Assembly: GCF_000702885.1 (NCBI RefSeq)
Contig: NZ_JNKO01000004.1
Span: forward strand, 62,001-126,000
Direction of reading: 5' to 3'
DNA: 64,000 nt
DNA from: Oribacterium sp. P6A1
GTDB taxonomy: Bacteria > Bacillota > Clostridia > Lachnospirales > Lachnospiraceae
In this document: positions 49,727 to 60,749 of the stretch, piece after piece
How the letters are laid out: each line of letters begins with the position of its first letter
How positions within the stretch are numbered: the first letter of the stretch is position 1
The notes under the pieces: generated by a model
The model's input: only the letters and a program-made list of their open reading frames with translations
The model's database searches: none
Told to the model about the DNA's origin: nothing
Program-made: the position numbers and the translations under genes

Positions 49727-49940
49727 CGTGCTTTTTGGAGCTTGGGGACACACGCCTTTTTATTGACAGTGAATGGTATTTTATATAAAATATAGTGGTT
49801 AAGTTAATGATTATATTGTTGGCAATATAAAATTATATATAAATGGAATTGGACGGAGCTTAGTCGGAAAACCGGCGTTTATGGCTTTTTTACATATCTG
49901 TTTGTACATTAACAACAAAATAGTGAAGGAGGTACACAAG

Positions 49941-51491
49941 GTGTCCCCAGTAGTAATTGCTGCTGTTATAGCAGTTGCTGTTGTTGCGGGTGTCATCATG
50001 TTTATTGCTGGTCAGAACAAAGCCAAGTCCGACTACGAAAAGGTGGTGGGTTCCGCTGAACAAAAGTCCAGAGAGATCATTGATGATGCTATCAGAACGG
50101 CTGAAAATAAGAAACGTGAAGCTCTTCTTGAGACAAAGGAAGAAGCATTGAAAGCAAAGAATGATCTGGATAAGGAGATTAAGGATCGTCGTAAGGAAGT
50201 ATCAGATCTTGAACACAGGATGCTGAAGAGAGATGAGGCTTCGGAGAAAAAGGCGGCAAATCTTGAACAGAAGGAGCAGGAGCTCCAGAAGCGTCAGGAG
50301 AAGATCAACAAAAGAGAAACTGAGGTTGAAGAACTTCATAATCAGAAAGTCACTGAGCTTGAAAGAATTTCAGGTCTCACCAGAGATCAGGCCAAGGCAG
50401 AACTTCTTAAGTCATTGGAAGAGGATACAAAGCATGATTATGCTATGATGGTCCGTGAGCTTGATAATCAGGCCAAGGAAGATGCTGAGAAGAATGCAAG
50501 AAATTATATTGTGGATGCAATTCAGAGGTGCGCAGCGGATCAGGTTACTGAATCAACGGTTTCCGTTGTACAGCTTCCGAACGATGAGATGAAGGGTAGA
50601 ATCATCGGACGTGAAGGACGTAACATCCGTACATTGGAGCAGCTTACAGGCGTTGAGCTCATTGTTGATGATACACCGGAGGCAGTTGTTCTTTCTGGAT
50701 TCGATCCTATCAGACGTGAAGTTGCAAGAATTGCTCTTGAGAAACTCATAGTAGACGGACGTATCCATCCGGCAAGAATTGAAGAGGTTGTTGAGAAGGC
50801 CCAGAAGGAAGTAGATGAAACTATCCGTGAAGAGGGTGATGCAGCTGTGCTGGAGGTAGGAGTACACGGTCTCAACCCTGAGCTTGTCAAGCTTCTTGGA
50901 CGCATGAAGTTCAGAACATCTTACGGACAGAATGCATTGAGACATTCGGTAGAGGTTGCTCAGATTTCAGGATTGCTGGCAGAAGAGCTGGGACTGGATG
51001 TGCGTATGGCAAAGAGAGCCGGGCTTCTCCATGATATCGGAAAAGCTATTGACCATGACGTTGAGGGTACTCATGTACAGCTTGGTGTTGAGCTTTGTAA
51101 GAAGTATCATGAGCCGGAAATAGTTATAAATACTGTTGCCTCCCATCATGGCGGCACAGAGCCCACTTCTCTTATAGCATGCATAGTCGCTGCGGCAGAT
51201 GCTATTTCGGCTGCAAGACCAGGTGCGAGACGTAAGTCACTCGAGACTTATACAAATCGTCTCAAGGAACTTGAGGATATCACAAACTCTTATAAAGGTG
51301 TTGAGAAGTCTTTTGCGGTACAGGCCGGAAGAGAAGTTCGTATCATGGTAGTTCCTGATCAGGTATCAGATGATGATATGACTATCATGGCACATGATAT
51401 GGCAAAACAGATTCAGGATCAGATGCAGTATCCGGGAGTTATAAAGGTAAATATCATTCGTGAATCAAGAGCCGTGGATTACGCAAAGTAA
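49941..51491 (+). CDS. rny: Ribonuclease Y
   Basis: The membrane-bound endoribonuclease that starts mRNA decay in many Firmicutes, 516 residues. An N-terminal membrane helix (residues 5-25) is followed by a long Lys/Glu-rich coiled coil to about residue 190, a KH RNA-binding domain ([20 protein letters not shown]) and an HD nuclease domain with [11 protein letters not shown] and [13 protein letters not shown]. The GTG start is fixed by AAGGAGG at 49926-49932; an upstream in-frame ATG at 49881 would add 20 residues before the membrane helix and lacks a site. A strong terminator follows. Confidence 0.96.
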
Positions 51492-51894: not shown

Positions 51895-53607
51895 ATGGCA
51901 AAAGAAAAAAACAAGATACAGCATAACACAGAACGGGAAGTGCTGGTAACCGGTCACAGGAATCCGGATACAGATTCAATCTGTGCAGCTATAGCATATT
52001 CAAGGCTTAAAAACAGGATAACGAAGTCAGAGAGATACATTCCCTGCAGAGCCGGTGATCCATCAAGAGAGACTGCCTTCGTCCTTGACTATTTCAAGGT
52101 TCCGGAACCAAGGCTCATTACATCTGTAAAAACTCAGGTTTCCGATATAGAGTACAGAAAAACACCGGGTGTAGACAGAGACATGTCTCTTAAGAAGGCA
52201 TGGACCATGATGAATGAGGATAATCTGGTTACCCTGCCGGTGCTTACTTCCTACAATTCACTTGAGGGTGTTATAACCATCGGTGACATAGCGAAATCAT
52301 ATTTTAATGTCTACGATTCCCACATCATTTCCAAGGCTCACACCAAGTTTGCCAACATTCAGGAGACACTGGAAGCAACTGTGGTGACAGGAGACATGAG
52401 CCGCTGCTGTACTGAGGGTAAGGTGCTCATCGCTGCCGCAAATCCTGAGATGATGTCGTATTATATAGAAAAGCATGACATAGTTATTCTCGGAAACAGA
52501 GCTGAGAACCAGCTTTCAGCCATGGATAACGGTGCAGATTGTATCATTATCTGCGAAGGTGCCAATGTTTCTCCCACCATCAAGAGTCTTGCCGAAGCAA
52601 ACGGCATGATCATCATGGTAACAAGCTATGACGCATATACGGCTGCCAGACTTATCAACCAGTCTATGCCTATTAGCTACTTCATGACTACAGACGGCCT
52701 TATAACCTTTACAGAGGATGACTATGTAGATGACATGAGAGATATCATGGCATCCAAGAGACACCGTGATTTCCCTATCATGGCAAAGGACGGCACTTAT
52801 CTCGGCATGGTATCCCGCAGAAATCTCCTTGGAAATCATGGAAAACAGGTTATCCTTGTTGACCACAACGAGCCGGGACAGGCTGTGGAAGGTATAGAGG
52901 CTGCTGATATTCTTGAAATCATCGATCATCACAAGATCGCTACAGTTCAGACCATGTCTCCTGTATATTTCAGAAATCAGCCCCTCGGATGCTGCTCAAC
53001 CATCATTACCCAGATGTATAAGGAGAACAACATCGAGATCGACAAGCAGACTGCAGGACTTCTTATGTCGGCTATCATTTCCGATACATTGCTTTTCAGA
53101 TCTCCTACCTGTACGCCTCTTGATGAGAAGACAGGAAGAGAGCTTGCGGAAATTGCAGGTGTGGATATCGAGAAGTACGCTTTCTCCATGTTCTCGGCAG
53201 GATCAAACCTTAAGGGAAAGACTACAGAAGAGATATTCTACCAGGATTTCAAGCACTTTACTGCCGGAAAGATCGAATTTGGTGTCAGCCAGGTGACAAG
53301 TCTCAACAAGGATGAGCTTGAGGCGATGAAGGACGACCTTGAGAATTTTGCAAACAAGGCACTCAAGGTAGAGGGTATTGATATGAGCTTCATCATGCTT
53401 ACTAACATCCTTGACAGAAGTACCGATCTTTTGGCTGTGGGTCAGGGAGCAGGTAAGCTTATTGCCAATGCTTTCGGCGTGGAACCTGTCAAGAGAGAGA
53501 ACAGTGAAGGCAACCTGGAGGACTGCTGGTCAGTTGTACTCTCGGGAGTTGTTTCCAGAAAGAAGCAGCTTGTACCACCTCTTACTCTTTTCGGAGAACA
53601 GATGTAA
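51895..53607 (+). CDS. ppaC: Family II (DHH) inorganic pyrophosphatase with CBS-DRTGG-CBS regulatory insert
   Basis: A manganese-dependent pyrophosphatase of 570 residues. The N-terminal DHH motifs are VTGHRNPDTDSICAAIA and, after the insert, IDHHKIATVQTMSP (Asp-His-His). Between residues about 75 and 320 lies a regulatory insert with two CBS domains (TLPVLTSYNSLEGVITIGDI and FPIMAKDGTYLGMVSRRNL) around a DRTGG domain. Related clostridial enzymes are inhibited by AMP or ADP and activated by ATP or diadenosine polyphosphates. The C-terminal DHHA2 part contains SRKKQLVPPL, which binds phosphate. It stands alone upstream of two genes on the same strand. Confidence 0.94.
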   Translation: MAKEKNKIQHNTEREVLVTGHRNPDTDSICAAIAYSRLKNRITKSERYIPCRAGDPSRETAFVLDYFKVPEPRLITSVKTQVSDIEYRKTPGVDRDMSLKKAWTMMNEDNLVTLPVLTSYNSLEGVITIGDIAKSYFNVYDSHIISKAHTKFANIQETLEATVVTGDMSRCCTEGKVLIAAANPEMMSYYIEKHDIVILGNRAENQLSAMDNGADCIIICEGANVSPTIKSLAEANGMIIMVTSYDAYTAARLINQSMPISYFMTTDGLITFTEDDYVDDMRDIMASKRHRDFPIMAKDGTYLGMVSRRNLLGNHGKQVILVDHNEPGQAVEGIEAADILEIIDHHKIATVQTMSPVYFRNQPLGCCSTIITQMYKENNIEIDKQTAGLLMSAIISDTLLFRSPTCTPLDEKTGRELAEIAGVDIEKYAFSMFSAGSNLKGKTTEEIFYQDFKHFTAGKIEFGVSQVTSLNKDELEAMKDDLENFANKALKVEGIDMSFIMLTNILDRSTDLLAVGQGAGKLIANAFGVEPVKRENSEGNLEDCWSVVLSGVVSRKKQLVPPLTLFGEQM

Positions 53608-53723
53608 TATTGTTCCGTACAGTGCCGGTCTTTTGGGCGAAAACCCAGGGGGCCGGCATTATAAACATATTATTGGCAGCTGGGAATCTGCTGACTTATT
53701 AAACTTCGGAGGACATTACTTTT

Positions 53724-54221
53724 ATGAATATCACAATGATAGGGATGCCGGCCTGTGGAAAATCCACAATCGGCGTAATGCTGGCAAAAAGATTCGGTAT
53801 GAGCTTTGTGGATATCGATATTCTGATTCAGGAAAAGACAGGAAAGCTTTTAAAGGAAATCATAGCTTCGGAAGGAAATGATGGATTTCTTAAAATAGAA
53901 GGAGATATCGCGGCAGAACTTAATGTGAAAAACTCAATTATCGCTCCGGGAGGATCAATTTGCTATGAAGACTGGGCCATGGAGCATCTTAAAGCTATAG
54001 GCAGGGTGGTTTATCTCAAGATCTCATACGAGGAGATGGAGAAGCGTATCGGTAATGTTGTTGACCGGGGAGTCGCTATTCCTGAAGGCTATACTCTGAG
54101 GGACCTCTATAATGAAAGAACTGCCCTCTATGAGAAATATGCGGATGTCACTATAGATGAAGCCGGAAAAACTCCGGCTGAAATAGTCAATGAGCTTAAA
54201 CTGTGGCTGGAGAAACTGTGA
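53724..54221 (+). CDS. Shikimate kinase-like P-loop kinase
   Basis: A 165-residue small-molecule kinase. GMPACGKSTIG is the P-loop, FVDIDILIQ resembles the Asp-x-Asp of shikimate kinase, and RDLYNERTALYEKYADV matches its lid and nucleotide-binding end. However, the conserved shikimate-binding Arg of the F-R-x-x-E block is Lys (FLKIE) and the Gly-Gly-Gly motif reads PGGS. So it is either a divergent shikimate kinase or a related kinase with another substrate. It lies outside any aromatic pathway cluster, 18 bases before the GTPase fusion gene, with which it is probably co-transcribed. GGAGG lies upstream. Confidence 0.78.
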   Translation: MNITMIGMPACGKSTIGVMLAKRFGMSFVDIDILIQEKTGKLLKEIIASEGNDGFLKIEGDIAAELNVKNSIIAPGGSICYEDWAMEHLKAIGRVVYLKISYEEMEKRIGNVVDRGVAIPEGYTLRDLYNERTALYEKYADVTIDEAGKTPAEIVNELKLWLEKL

Positions 54222-54239
54222 TGCCCGGGAGGATACATT

Positions 54240-56933
54240 TTGGAGGAGAATATTAAGAAACGCCTTGTTATAGGAATACTGGCTCATGTTGATGCGGGAA
54301 AGACGACATTGTCCGAAAGTATCCTTTTTGATGCCGGAAAAATCCGGAGTCTGGGACGTGTGGATAACGGTAATGCTTATCTGGATACAAATCATATGGA
54401 AAAGGAAAGAGGAATCACCATCTTTTCAAAGATGGCAACCTTTGACCTTAAGGATATAGAGGTATCCCTGCTTGATACTCCGGGACATGTGGACTTTTCC
54501 GCGGAAATGGAAAAGACTCTTTCGGTGCTTGATTATGCCATACTTGTAGTGAACGGAGCCGATGGAGTTCAGGGGCATACGGAGACACTCTGGAAGCTGC
54601 TTGAAAGGTACGGCGTTCCTGTCTTTATCTTTGTGAACAAAATGGACCAGCCCGGAACGGACAAGGGAGTGCTGCTGGAAAATCTGGAAAAGCATTTTGG
54701 AAATGCCGCAGTGGATTTCAGTGATGCGGGAGTATATTCCATGTCTGAAACTCTGAAGGAAAACATTGCCATGTGCGATGAGCGTATCATGGAAAAGTAT
54801 CTTGATAAGGGCGAGCTGGATCCGAAGGATATCAGGAACATGATTTGGGACAGGAAGCTGTTCCCTGTTTATTTCGGATCTGCCCTAAAAAATTTCGGAG
54901 TTAAAGAATTTCTGGAGGGGATACACACCTTCACGGAAATTCCGCTTTATCCCGATGCTTTCGGCGCAAAAGTCTTTAAAATAGCCAAGGATGATTCCGA
55001 CAGAAGACTTACCTATATGAAGATAACAGGTGGAGAGCTAAAGGTAAGGACTGAGATAGTTCCGGATGAAAAAGTATCTGAAATAAGAGTATACAGCGGT
55101 TCGAAATATGTTAATGTGGACACCGCGGAGGCAGGCACGGTATGTGCGGTTCTTGGAGTCGGAAGTCTCAAAACAGGAGATGTACTTGGATGTGAGCCAA
55201 AGGGAAAAGAGATGTCACTGAAGCCGGTTCTGGACTATCAGGTGATTTCAAAAGATGTGGATTCACAGGAACTATACAGAAAGCTGGGCACCATCTCGGA
55301 CGAATTTCCGGAGCTTCATATAAGCTGGGACAATGCTTTAAAGGAGATACACGTTCATCTAATGGGTGAAGTACAGATAGAGATCCTGAAAAGAGTTGTG
55401 AAGGAACGCTTTGACCTAGAGCTTGAATTGGGAGAAAGCAGGATACTCTATCTTGAGACTATAGCGGAACCGGTACTGGGTGTTGGCCACTTTGAACCCC
55501 TTAGACATTATGCCGAGGTACATTTGCTTATGGAGCCCCTTCCGAGAGGCTCGGGTCTTCAGTTCCGGGCAGACTGTTCAACGGATGATCTGGCGCTTAA
55601 CTGGCAGCGACTGGTACTTACCCACCTTAGAGAAAAGGAACATGTGGGGGTTCTTACCGGGAGCGGTATAACGGATATAAGATTTACTCTGGTGGCCGGA
55701 AGAGCACATAACAAGCATACAGAAGGCGGTGATTTCAGAGAGGCAACCTACCGTGCTGTAAGACAGGGACTCAGAAAAGCGGTAAATGTTCTCCTTGAGC
55801 CGTATTATGCCTTTACCCTTGAGATACCGAAGGATTTTGTGGGAAGAGCCATGACGGATCTTTCCAACATGAATGCTAAATTCAATCCTCCTGAAATAAA
55901 GGGTGACAGTTCGGTCATAGTGGGAACAGCCGCTGTAAAGGCCATGAGGGACTATCATAAGGATGTTATGGTTTACAGCAAGGGAAGAGGTCATCTGTTC
56001 TTAAGGTTCAGCGGCTATGATAAGTGCCATGATGCGGAGGAGGTTATATTTAACAGCGGCTATGATCCGGATGAAGACATACTGAATCCAAGCTCTTCTG
56101 TTTTCTGCGCCCATGGATCGGGATATATCGTTCCGTTTGATCAGGTGGAAAGATATATGCACGTGGAATCACCTGTAGATGTTTATGAAAATACGGAGAA
56201 GAGAGATTTTGAGACTGATGCTGTCCGCATGGAGCGAAGTCAGGAAAAGAAAAACGAGCGGAAGTTTAAAAACAGCGGTCAGTATATAGCGGATCAGGAG
56301 CTTGAAGATATTTTTATACGTACCTTCGGACCTATAAAAAACCGGGCCAAGGAAGTTAATCTTGCCAGCGCAAGGACCATAAGAGCAAAGGAAAAAGAGG
56401 CCAATAAGGCTGAGAACCGGCGTGAGATAAGGACCGTGGAAAAGAAAACAGAGTATCTTCTTGTGGACGGATATAACATCATATTTGCATGGGATGATCT
56501 TTGTGATCTTGCAAAAACCAACCTTGACAGTGCAAGAGGGAAGCTTCTTGATATAATGTCCAACTATGCGGGATTCACCGGAAAGTCGGTCATCGTAGTA
56601 TTTGATGCATACAGGGTGGCAGGACATCAGGTGGAACAGATAAAGTATCATAACATCTATGTGGTCTATACCAGAGAAGCCATGACTGCGGACGAGTACA
56701 TAGAAGAAGAGACCCATGAACTGAAAAAGCAGTATAATGTGACAGTTGCCACCTCTGATAAGGTGGTTCAGGTCATAACATGGGGAAAGGGTGCTGTTAT
56801 ACTGAGTGCAAAAAATCTTCTGGAAGAGGTGGAACGTACCGTTAATACCTTAAGAAGAGAGCATCTTGACAAAGATCCCATGTCCGGACATATAGGAACA
56901 AAGCTGGATATACCTTCGGGAAAGGAAGAATAA
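54240..56933 (+). CDS. TetM/EF-G-like ribosomal GTPase fused to a C-terminal Rae1/YacP-like NYN ribonuclease
   Basis: An 897-residue fusion. Residues 1 to about 640 match ribosomal protection proteins and EF-G: G1 AHVDAGKTT (15-23), switch I ERGITI (56-61), G3 DTPGH (79-83), G4 NKMD (133-136), then barrel and domains III-V. A charged linker follows. From about 737 an NYN (PIN-like) domain shows YLLVDGYNIIFAW, VIVVFDAYRV, TADEYIEEE and VATSDKVVQ; Asp743, Asp789, Asp818 and Asp840 are candidate metal ligands. This resembles Rae1 (YacP), which cuts mRNA in the ribosomal A site. Tetracycline resistance cannot be concluded. The TTG start is fixed by GGGAGG 7 bases upstream. Confidence 0.9.
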   Translation: MEENIKKRLVIGILAHVDAGKTTLSESILFDAGKIRSLGRVDNGNAYLDTNHMEKERGITIFSKMATFDLKDIEVSLLDTPGHVDFSAEMEKTLSVLDYAILVVNGADGVQGHTETLWKLLERYGVPVFIFVNKMDQPGTDKGVLLENLEKHFGNAAVDFSDAGVYSMSETLKENIAMCDERIMEKYLDKGELDPKDIRNMIWDRKLFPVYFGSALKNFGVKEFLEGIHTFTEIPLYPDAFGAKVFKIAKDDSDRRLTYMKITGGELKVRTEIVPDEKVSEIRVYSGSKYVNVDTAEAGTVCAVLGVGSLKTGDVLGCEPKGKEMSLKPVLDYQVISKDVDSQELYRKLGTISDEFPELHISWDNALKEIHVHLMGEVQIEILKRVVKERFDLELELGESRILYLETIAEPVLGVGHFEPLRHYAEVHLLMEPLPRGSGLQFRADCSTDDLALNWQRLVLTHLREKEHVGVLTGSGITDIRFTLVAGRAHNKHTEGGDFREATYRAVRQGLRKAVNVLLEPYYAFTLEIPKDFVGRAMTDLSNMNAKFNPPEIKGDSSVIVGTAAVKAMRDYHKDVMVYSKGRGHLFLRFSGYDKCHDAEEVIFNSGYDPDEDILNPSSSVFCAHGSGYIVPFDQVERYMHVESPVDVYENTEKRDFETDAVRMERSQEKKNERKFKNSGQYIADQELEDIFIRTFGPIKNRAKEVNLASARTIRAKEKEANKAENRREIRTVEKKTEYLLVDGYNIIFAWDDLCDLAKTNLDSARGKLLDIMSNYAGFTGKSVIVVFDAYRVAGHQVEQIKYHNIYVVYTREAMTADEYIEEETHELKKQYNVTVATSDKVVQVITWGKGAVILSAKNLLEEVERTVNTLRREHLDKDPMSGHIGTKLDIPSGKEE

Positions 56934-59558: not shown

Positions 59559-60749
59559 ATGAAGAAGAGAATTTTAAGCTCAGTTCTGGCAGTGACGATG
59601 GCAGCTACAGCCCTTACAGCATGTGGCGGTTCACAGAAGCCGGCAGAAACAGCTGCACAGACACAGGCAGCAGAGACAAAAGCTGCAGAGACTAAGGCAG
59701 CAGAGGAGACCAAGGCAGCAGAAGAGACTAAGGCTGCAGAGGAGACCAAGGCAGCTGAAGAGACCAAGGCAGCAGAGGGCGGAGAGTACAAGGTGAATGA
59801 GGCAGCAGCAGCCGATCCTGCAGTAGTACTCACAATGGCTGAGGTTAATCCTGTAGATGATACAATTTGCGGAAAGATGGATAAGAAGTTCATAGAAGCT
59901 GTTGAGGCTATATCCGGCGGATCAATCACCATTGATCTTCAGGGATCCGGCGTACTCGGAGCTGAGTCAGACGTTCTTGATTCTATGCTCGGCGGCGGCG
60001 GAGACATCGATATCTCACGTATCTCAGCATTTGCACTTACCTCTTACGGCGCAAAGAAGTCAGTACTTCTTTCACTTCCATACACATTTGAATCAAGAGA
60101 GCATTACTGGAAGTTTGTAAACAGTGATCTCGGCAAGGAGATCCTTGATGAGTCAGAGAAGGAGGGCATCGGTGTTAAGGGCCTCTTCTATGGCGAGGAA
60201 GGTTTCAGACACTTCTTTACAGTAAAGGATAAGCCTGTTTCATCAGTTGATGATCTTAAGGGAATGAAGATCAGAGTATCCAACGACCCTATCATGGTAA
60301 AGATGGTTGAGGCACTTGGCGCTACAGCAACATCAGTTTCCATGACAGAGCTTTACTCAGCACTTCAGACAAACACTGTAGACGGTGCAGGTCAGCCTAT
60401 CGTAAACTACGCATCAAACAGATTTGATGAGGTTGCTCCAAACCTTACACTTGACAGCCACACACTTGGTGCAATTGAGGTTGTTATCGCTGAGGATTCA
60501 TGGAACAACAAGCTTACAGATAACCAGAGAGCTGTAATTGAAGAGGCTTCAAAGATCGCATCTGATTACTGCCACACAATCGCAGTTGAGACAGAGGCCA
60601 AGGTTCTTGATGAGCTCAAGGCTCGCGGATGCAATGTTATCGACATCAGTGACATGGCTCCATGGGAGGAAGCTTGTAAGGCTATCGCTGAGGAAAATGC
60701 ACAGGGAGATCTTGCAGACGTATATGCACAGATCAAGGCTCTTGCATAA
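59559..60749 (+). CDS. dctP: TRAP transporter solute-binding lipoprotein
   Basis: Binds a carboxylate or sugar acid and feeds the DctQM permease. The signal peptide ends in a lipobox (LTAC, Cys22). A linker of four to five KAAEET-type repeats follows (residues 33-70), then the DctP domain of about 310 residues. DLKGMKIRVSNDPIMVKMVEALGA contains the Arg that clamps the ligand carboxylate in this family, and DGAGQPIVNYASNRFDEVA follows. Strong codon bias suggests very high expression. GGAGG precedes the ATG. A hairpin terminator between this gene and dctQ should keep permease levels lower. Confidence 0.92.
   Translation: MKKRILSSVLAVTMAATALTACGGSQKPAETAAQTQAAETKAAETKAAEETKAAEETKAAEETKAAEETKAAEGGEYKVNEAAAADPAVVLTMAEVNPVDDTICGKMDKKFIEAVEAISGGSITIDLQGSGVLGAESDVLDSMLGGGGDIDISRISAFALTSYGAKKSVLLSLPYTFESREHYWKFVNSDLGKEILDESEKEGIGVKGLFYGEEGFRHFFTVKDKPVSSVDDLKGMKIRVSNDPIMVKMVEALGATATSVSMTELYSALQTNTVDGAGQPIVNYASNRFDEVAPNLTLDSHTLGAIEVVIAEDSWNNKLTDNQRAVIEEASKIASDYCHTIAVETEAKVLDELKARGCNVIDISDMAPWEEACKAIAEENAQGDLADVYAQIKALA

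Follow-up and report, generated by a model that had tools for sequence, protein, structure and literature searches.

The fused gene and its nuclease domain

A 64,000-nucleotide stretch of Oribacterium sp. P6A1 (Lachnospiraceae; contig NZ_JNKO01000004.1, positions 62,001 to 126,000), here called the window, contains a single open frame of 897 amino acids (aa) that joins a translational GTPase (trGTPase) resembling elongation factor G (EF-G) to a C-terminal nuclease domain of the NYN_YacP family (Table 1). A first-pass annotation made from the sequence alone had proposed this joining, and the Pfam domains within the frame bear it out. The first codon is TTG, with a GGGAGG stretch seven bases ahead of it and directly 3' of the preceding gene's stop; the TTG and a similar purine-rich stretch are kept in three near relatives (L022-L024). 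The fused gene is not an assembly joint because both halves lie within one frame at each of 80 loci from named records, chosen as the best of 144 relatives found. Values of dN/dS against three close relatives are 0.03-0.06, similar for the NYN and GTPase parts, and indicate purifying selection, although they are rough because dS is near saturation.

Table 1. Features of the fused gene, with positions counted from the first base of the window.
Feature	Residues	Position	Strand	Basis and remarks
Fused gene, 897 aa: trGTPase, extension, linker and NYN_YacP		54240..56933	+	TTG start; frame and Pfam
Likely ribosome-binding stretch, GGGAGG		54227..54232	+	Sequence read
trGTPase domains I-V	8-598	54261..56033	+	Pfam, conservation, fold
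Domain IV tip loop 3, RAHNKHTEGGDF	488-499	55701..55736	+	Alignment; subfamily-specific
C-terminal extension	599-645	56034..56174	+	Alignment; predicted ordered
Linker, with motif at ~685-700, DQELEDIFIRTFGPIK	646-737	56175..56450	+	Mostly low-confidence in predicted model
NYN_YacP/Rae1-type nuclease domain	738-877	56451..56870	+	Pfam, alignment, predicted structure

The NYN_YacP match spans residues 740-876 and scores 157.3 bits against a Pfam cut-off of 24.6. Comparison with Rae1 by structure prediction, suggested in the first-pass annotation, gives the C-terminal part the Rae1 fold. The four acidic residues picked out there are correctly placed: Asp743, 789, 818 and 840 align with Rae1 Asp7, 53, 81 and 104 (Rae1 positions counted by hand) and are invariant in 81/81 fused and 16/16 free NYN domains. 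We take the conserved Rae1 aspartates to be catalytic. Likeness to Rae1/YacP of Bacillus subtilis (PDB 5mq8, 5mq9) thus lies in the fold and the active-site aspartates, and presumably also in the type of cut made at paused ribosomes. Rae1 stands alone as a protein of ~170 aa, and its gene is co-transcribed with yacO, a homologue of rlmB (PMC6613710), whereas the fused NYN domain makes up the C-terminal portion of a GTPase that is 897 aa long and encoded elsewhere. Fused domains also share a WDDL motif beside the active site (D752 in 81/81, D753 in 80/81), where free domains have Pro after the Trp (15/16) and then Glu (14/16). All 81 fused proteins carry the linker motif DxELxxIFERTYGxIK (72 strict, nine variants by eye), the strict copies lying 43-72 residues ahead of DGYN, and the aligned GTPase-only proteins terminate before it. 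The linker motif and D752/D753 might make contacts peculiar to the fusion.

A GTPase subfamily and the question of drug protection

Pfam places GTP_EFTU at residues 8-231, EF-G_D2 at 243-316, EFG_IV at 402-514 and EFG_C at 517-598 of the same frame, with an EFG_III match at 337-398 slightly below cut-off (25.7 against 27 bits). Together with intact G motifs (AHVDAGKT, RGIT, DTPGH, NKMD) and the fold, these EF-G domains II-V assign the N-terminal half to the translational GTPase superfamily. Its domain IV tip has its own signatures, GHxEPLRHYAEVHL, LTGSxITD and GRAHxKHTEGGDFRxATYRAxRQGL, and all three loops differ from the Tet type in an alignment that includes three Tet-type and four EF-G-type proteins encoded at the loci. 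K492, H493 and T494 are invariant across 67 aligned rows, and Lys492 occupies the position of TetM Pro509. An extension of ~50 residues follows that is common to 13 aligned GTPase-only relatives and is not present in the aligned Tet and EF-G sequences. These relatives (mostly 654-674 aa, 41-46% identity) have the same domain IV tip but stop after the extension, with neither linker nor NYN domain. A tree of 66 GTPases (48 fused, 13 GTPase-only, 3 Tet-type, 2 EF-G) contains a fused clade with SH-aLRT support of 98 and a GTPase-only clade with 96; both jointly split from the rest with 100. The Tet rows carry long-branch warnings. The GTPase half is a clade of its own, neither Tet nor EF-G by NCBI cut-offs. 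The NCBIfam scores are 319.1 bits for Tet(M)/(W) (cut-off 1100), 274.1 for Tet(M) (1420) and 299.5 for EF-G TIGR00484 (659.4). EF-G has other tip loops and ~26-30% overall identity, and the window's genome encodes EF-G-type proteins separately, in frames of 710 and 717 aa. On three contigs among those of Ruminococcus and Oscillospiraceae, an EF-G-type frame (~26-27% identity) lies a few kilobases from the fused gene (L057 3754-5833, L064 2105-4202, L074 4540-6100).

This architecture is already in print. Atkinson 2015 (PMC4342817) reported NYN additions to 'Tet' proteins of ten clostridial species, suggested RNase-based resistance and called for testing. The protein described here very probably belongs to that group. 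As that paper proposed, the fused protein might protect ribosomes from tetracycline or another drug of the A site and use its nuclease as an additional means. In favour of this are TetO and TetM as the closest solved structures of the GTPase by sequence, a shared five-domain EF-G-like build (Tet(O) is ~31% identical over residues 2-594) and tet_protect (NF012153) as the best NCBIfam model. That match reaches only 436.8 bits against a cut-off of 775. In TetM, bound tetracycline and the loop 3 tip residue Pro509 overlap (PMC7456112). The TetM S508A/P509A/V510A protein is still active (PMC4750697), and loop 3 keeps its length in the fused protein, so the tip letters alone, including Lys492, do not dispose of drug protection. 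Three differing loops, a separate clade, the extension and the added nuclease nevertheless set the fused protein apart from TetM/TetO, as does its very wide, non-sporadic spread in the host family (125/150 genera, see below). In addition, at least 13 family genomes, the window's own not among them, have Tet-type genes (643-644 aa, 32-34% identity) as well as the fusion, and relatives covering at least 80% occur in just two of the 1,093 plasmid records in which a relative was found. Overall, we consider drug protection unlikely.

Database labels are mixed. The first-pass annotation had expected a tetracycline-resistance label; some records do use the Tet family name, while others read 'translation factor GTPase family protein', and the two full-length plasmid-borne relatives carry one of each ('TetM/TetW/TetO/TetS family...' for the former). 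Each of the 28 listed Ligilactobacillus salivarius plasmid records (H3-H30) has a relative that aligns to residues 1-643 or 4-643 (45-47% identity) and to nothing of the NYN part; the label is Tet family in 26 and translation factor GTPase in one, and one is unlabelled. A phage origin was considered and rejected: none of 49 viral-contig relatives found by two peptide patterns matches past residue 643, and the PHROGs 'translation elongation factor' family matches residues 6-641. In two unannotated 'Bacteriophage sp.' records (H31, MT835563.1; H32, MT835514.1) a relative extends over 96% of the fused protein, and a GTPase-only relative is present on three viral contigs (L154, L155, L184); both kinds are probably flanking host DNA. 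A defence system was likewise rejected, with PADLOC giving only a weak ThsB match (E 7e-4).

Spread of the fusion and the place of free yacP

The nearest named relatives are from Oribacterium and Lachnospiraceae bacterium JC7 (83-92% identity), and the 80 loci reach Oscillospiraceae, Butyricicoccaceae and Christensenellaceae. A survey of 150 genera of the host family (one genome each, the window's own included; tallies combined by hand) has NYN_YacP in 135 and the subfamily GTPase in 130, the latter being 131 matches minus G068, whose match is Tet-type. The fused gene occurs in 125 genera, as one frame of at least 848 aa in 119 and interrupted or shortened in six (G006, G042, G095, G098, G135, G140); the first-pass annotation had expected other Clostridia to share it. 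The G135 copy is a 690-aa frame (G135:C43:27866-29818) that matches GTPase residues 8-397 and NYN; residues 398-598 have no match reported, which would fit absence or strong divergence of domains IV-V. Five genera have a GTPase-only gene and a free NYN gene (G024, G029, G054, G059 and G099, the last with a 541-aa frame). Four have a free NYN gene with no such GTPase found (G007, G016, G020, G068; G020 is 67% and G016 87% complete), and one, with NYN at a contig edge in a genome 69% complete (G128), is unassigned. No complete free NYN was found in any fused genome of this survey (G076 has a 56-aa NYN piece at a contig edge besides the fusion), nor any GTPase-only gene among the matches listed (to E 3.7e-82). 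Fused and free NYN_YacP are thus nearly mutually exclusive in the family. More broadly, NYN_YacP occurs in 251 of 392 genomes of the class, where most rows among the matches listed have frames of either ~170-220 or 850-950 aa, and in 136 of 249 genomes of the phylum, where 16 rows (window included) have frames of 863-914 aa, nearly all others are short and one genome has two copies.

The place where a free gene would be expected is empty in most fused genomes examined. Genes there were named by reading the proteins, and rlmB also by NCBIfam TIGR00186. yacP lies 3' of mrnC and rlmB in five of seven examined family genomes with the free gene (G007, G024, G029, G054, G068), preceded by cysS in four and followed by a sigH-like gene in two; it is located elsewhere in G059 and G369. 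Among ten fused genomes, picked mainly for long contigs, seven have rlmB and sigH adjacent with no yacP between them (G035, G085, G102, G127, G138, G272, G461), two have no yacP after rlmB and no sigH at that place (G000, G046), and G446 retains yacP behind rlmB alongside the fusion. The window's own genome reads cysS-mrnC-rlmB without yacP, so the fused gene departs from the location behind rlmB that is usual for Rae1/YacP but does not define it. No credible yacP remnant was found behind rlmB in fused genomes (best match, E 0.15). The simplest account is fusion followed by loss of free yacP.

This gene neighbourhood also bears on whether the protein might instead be an RNase for rRNA or tRNA maturation or ribosome-assembly quality control, with the GTPase probing a subunit. 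Free yacP adjoins rlmB and mrnC, read as rRNA genes, and rRNA and tRNA maturation was earlier proposed for YacP-like NYN domains (cited in PMC4342817). The studied member, Rae1, is described as acting on A-site mRNA, as the first-pass annotation had stated (PMC6613710, PMC12320835), and domain IV is kept, which fits the decoding site of the 70S ribosome. A maturation role is similarly improbable.

Several observations weigh against replacement of Rae1 by the fusion. Neither gene is present in 15 of the 150 genera, 12 of them represented by genomes with a completeness of at least 90%, so these genera can do without the function. Three of the 15 (G004, G062, G120) likewise lack yacP after rlmB, so the empty place taken alone is no proof of replacement. 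One family genome (G039) holds the fusion and a second NYN piece at a contig start, possibly another copy. Two NYN matches occur in each of four of the 251 class genomes, and one of the four (G446) plainly has both a fused and a free gene. Among the 26 class genomes with free NYN that were tested, 18 have no such GTPase. With supports of 44/0, the NYN tree is too weak to place the free Lachnospiraceae genes outside or inside the fused ones, or to give the order of events. A quick NYN tree, in which broken fused copies (L016, L121) counted as free, nests free genes within fused ones and suggests fission as the origin of the family's free NYN; the careful tree does not, and five of these free genes follow rlmB.

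The scattered partners could also mean two uncoupled activities sharing one chain, the GTPase having its own translation role. A GTPase-only gene occurs in two of 15 tested class genomes without NYN, free NYN without GTPase is common (the 18 of 26 above) and the linker is of low confidence in predicted models. Against these, 125 of the 130 family genera with this GTPase have the halves joined, the linker motif is universal and WDDL is common to fused domains, and we regard uncoupled halves as the least probable alternative. An obligate pairing of GTPase-only and free NYN genes was tried and rejected (GTPase in 8/26 with free NYN versus 2/15 without NYN).

No conserved partner gene emerges among 13 neighbour families tallied at the loci, none of which exceeds 9/80. 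RNase Y-, pyrophosphatase- and shikimate kinase-like frames (by eye) lie 5' of the fused gene (window 49881-51491 and 51895-54221), the latter two adjoining it at 4/80 loci. A solute-binding-protein-like frame (59559-60749, by eye) has an AAETK/AAEETK repeat run after a signal-like start.

Proposed action at the ribosome

The reading favoured here, with a probability of roughly 0.57, is that the fused protein is a ribosome-directed endonuclease that replaced free Rae1. A message-cutting tool is likelier than a drug-resistance gene because the fusion seems to replace free Rae1 in many relatives. Ribosome binding, an mRNA substrate, the order of events, control by GTP and a loss of yacP later than the fusion are inferences that go past what domain make-up and distribution show; the interpretation given in the first-pass annotation is partly supported. 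An EF-G-kind GTPase would carry a Rae1-type nuclease to the place where Rae1 works. In its GTP form it would dock on paused ribosomes with an empty A site, domain IV reaching the decoding centre and acting as a probe. Ordered action would be expected because the A site would be contested between domain IV and Rae1. Once GTP was hydrolysed and domain IV had withdrawn, the NYN domain, tethered by a flexible ~90-residue linker, would be able to cut mRNA at or near the A site, and rescue and decay would follow. A more specific version, which we hold tentatively, is a one-chain, GTP-driven, mRNA-cutting rescue factor that would be the standard no-go-decay tool of many gut Clostridia, with free Rae1 displaced in their ancestor and the GTPase half selecting and timing the nuclease. 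Eukaryotes clear stalled ribosomes with a paired GTPase and endonuclease, and such a rescue factor would be the bacterial single-protein counterpart.

The first-pass annotation supposed the role to be unexplored, but Atkinson 2015 proposed resistance. The count there was ten species, interpreted as having Tet proteins; breadth, subfamily status and Rae1 replacement are added here. A separate GTPase subfamily read as standing in for Rae1 was not found in a literature search that lay outside two key Rae1 papers. If this reading is true, a gene found across Lachnospiraceae, Ruminococcus, Faecalibacterium and kin, and counted by some annotations as tetracycline resistance, would be a translation quality-control factor, and resistome counts that include it would need correcting. 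It would also be a natural case of an A-site-kind mRNA nuclease joined to a translational GTPase, and a single purified protein would then serve to study how mRNA cutting on the ribosome is recruited and timed.
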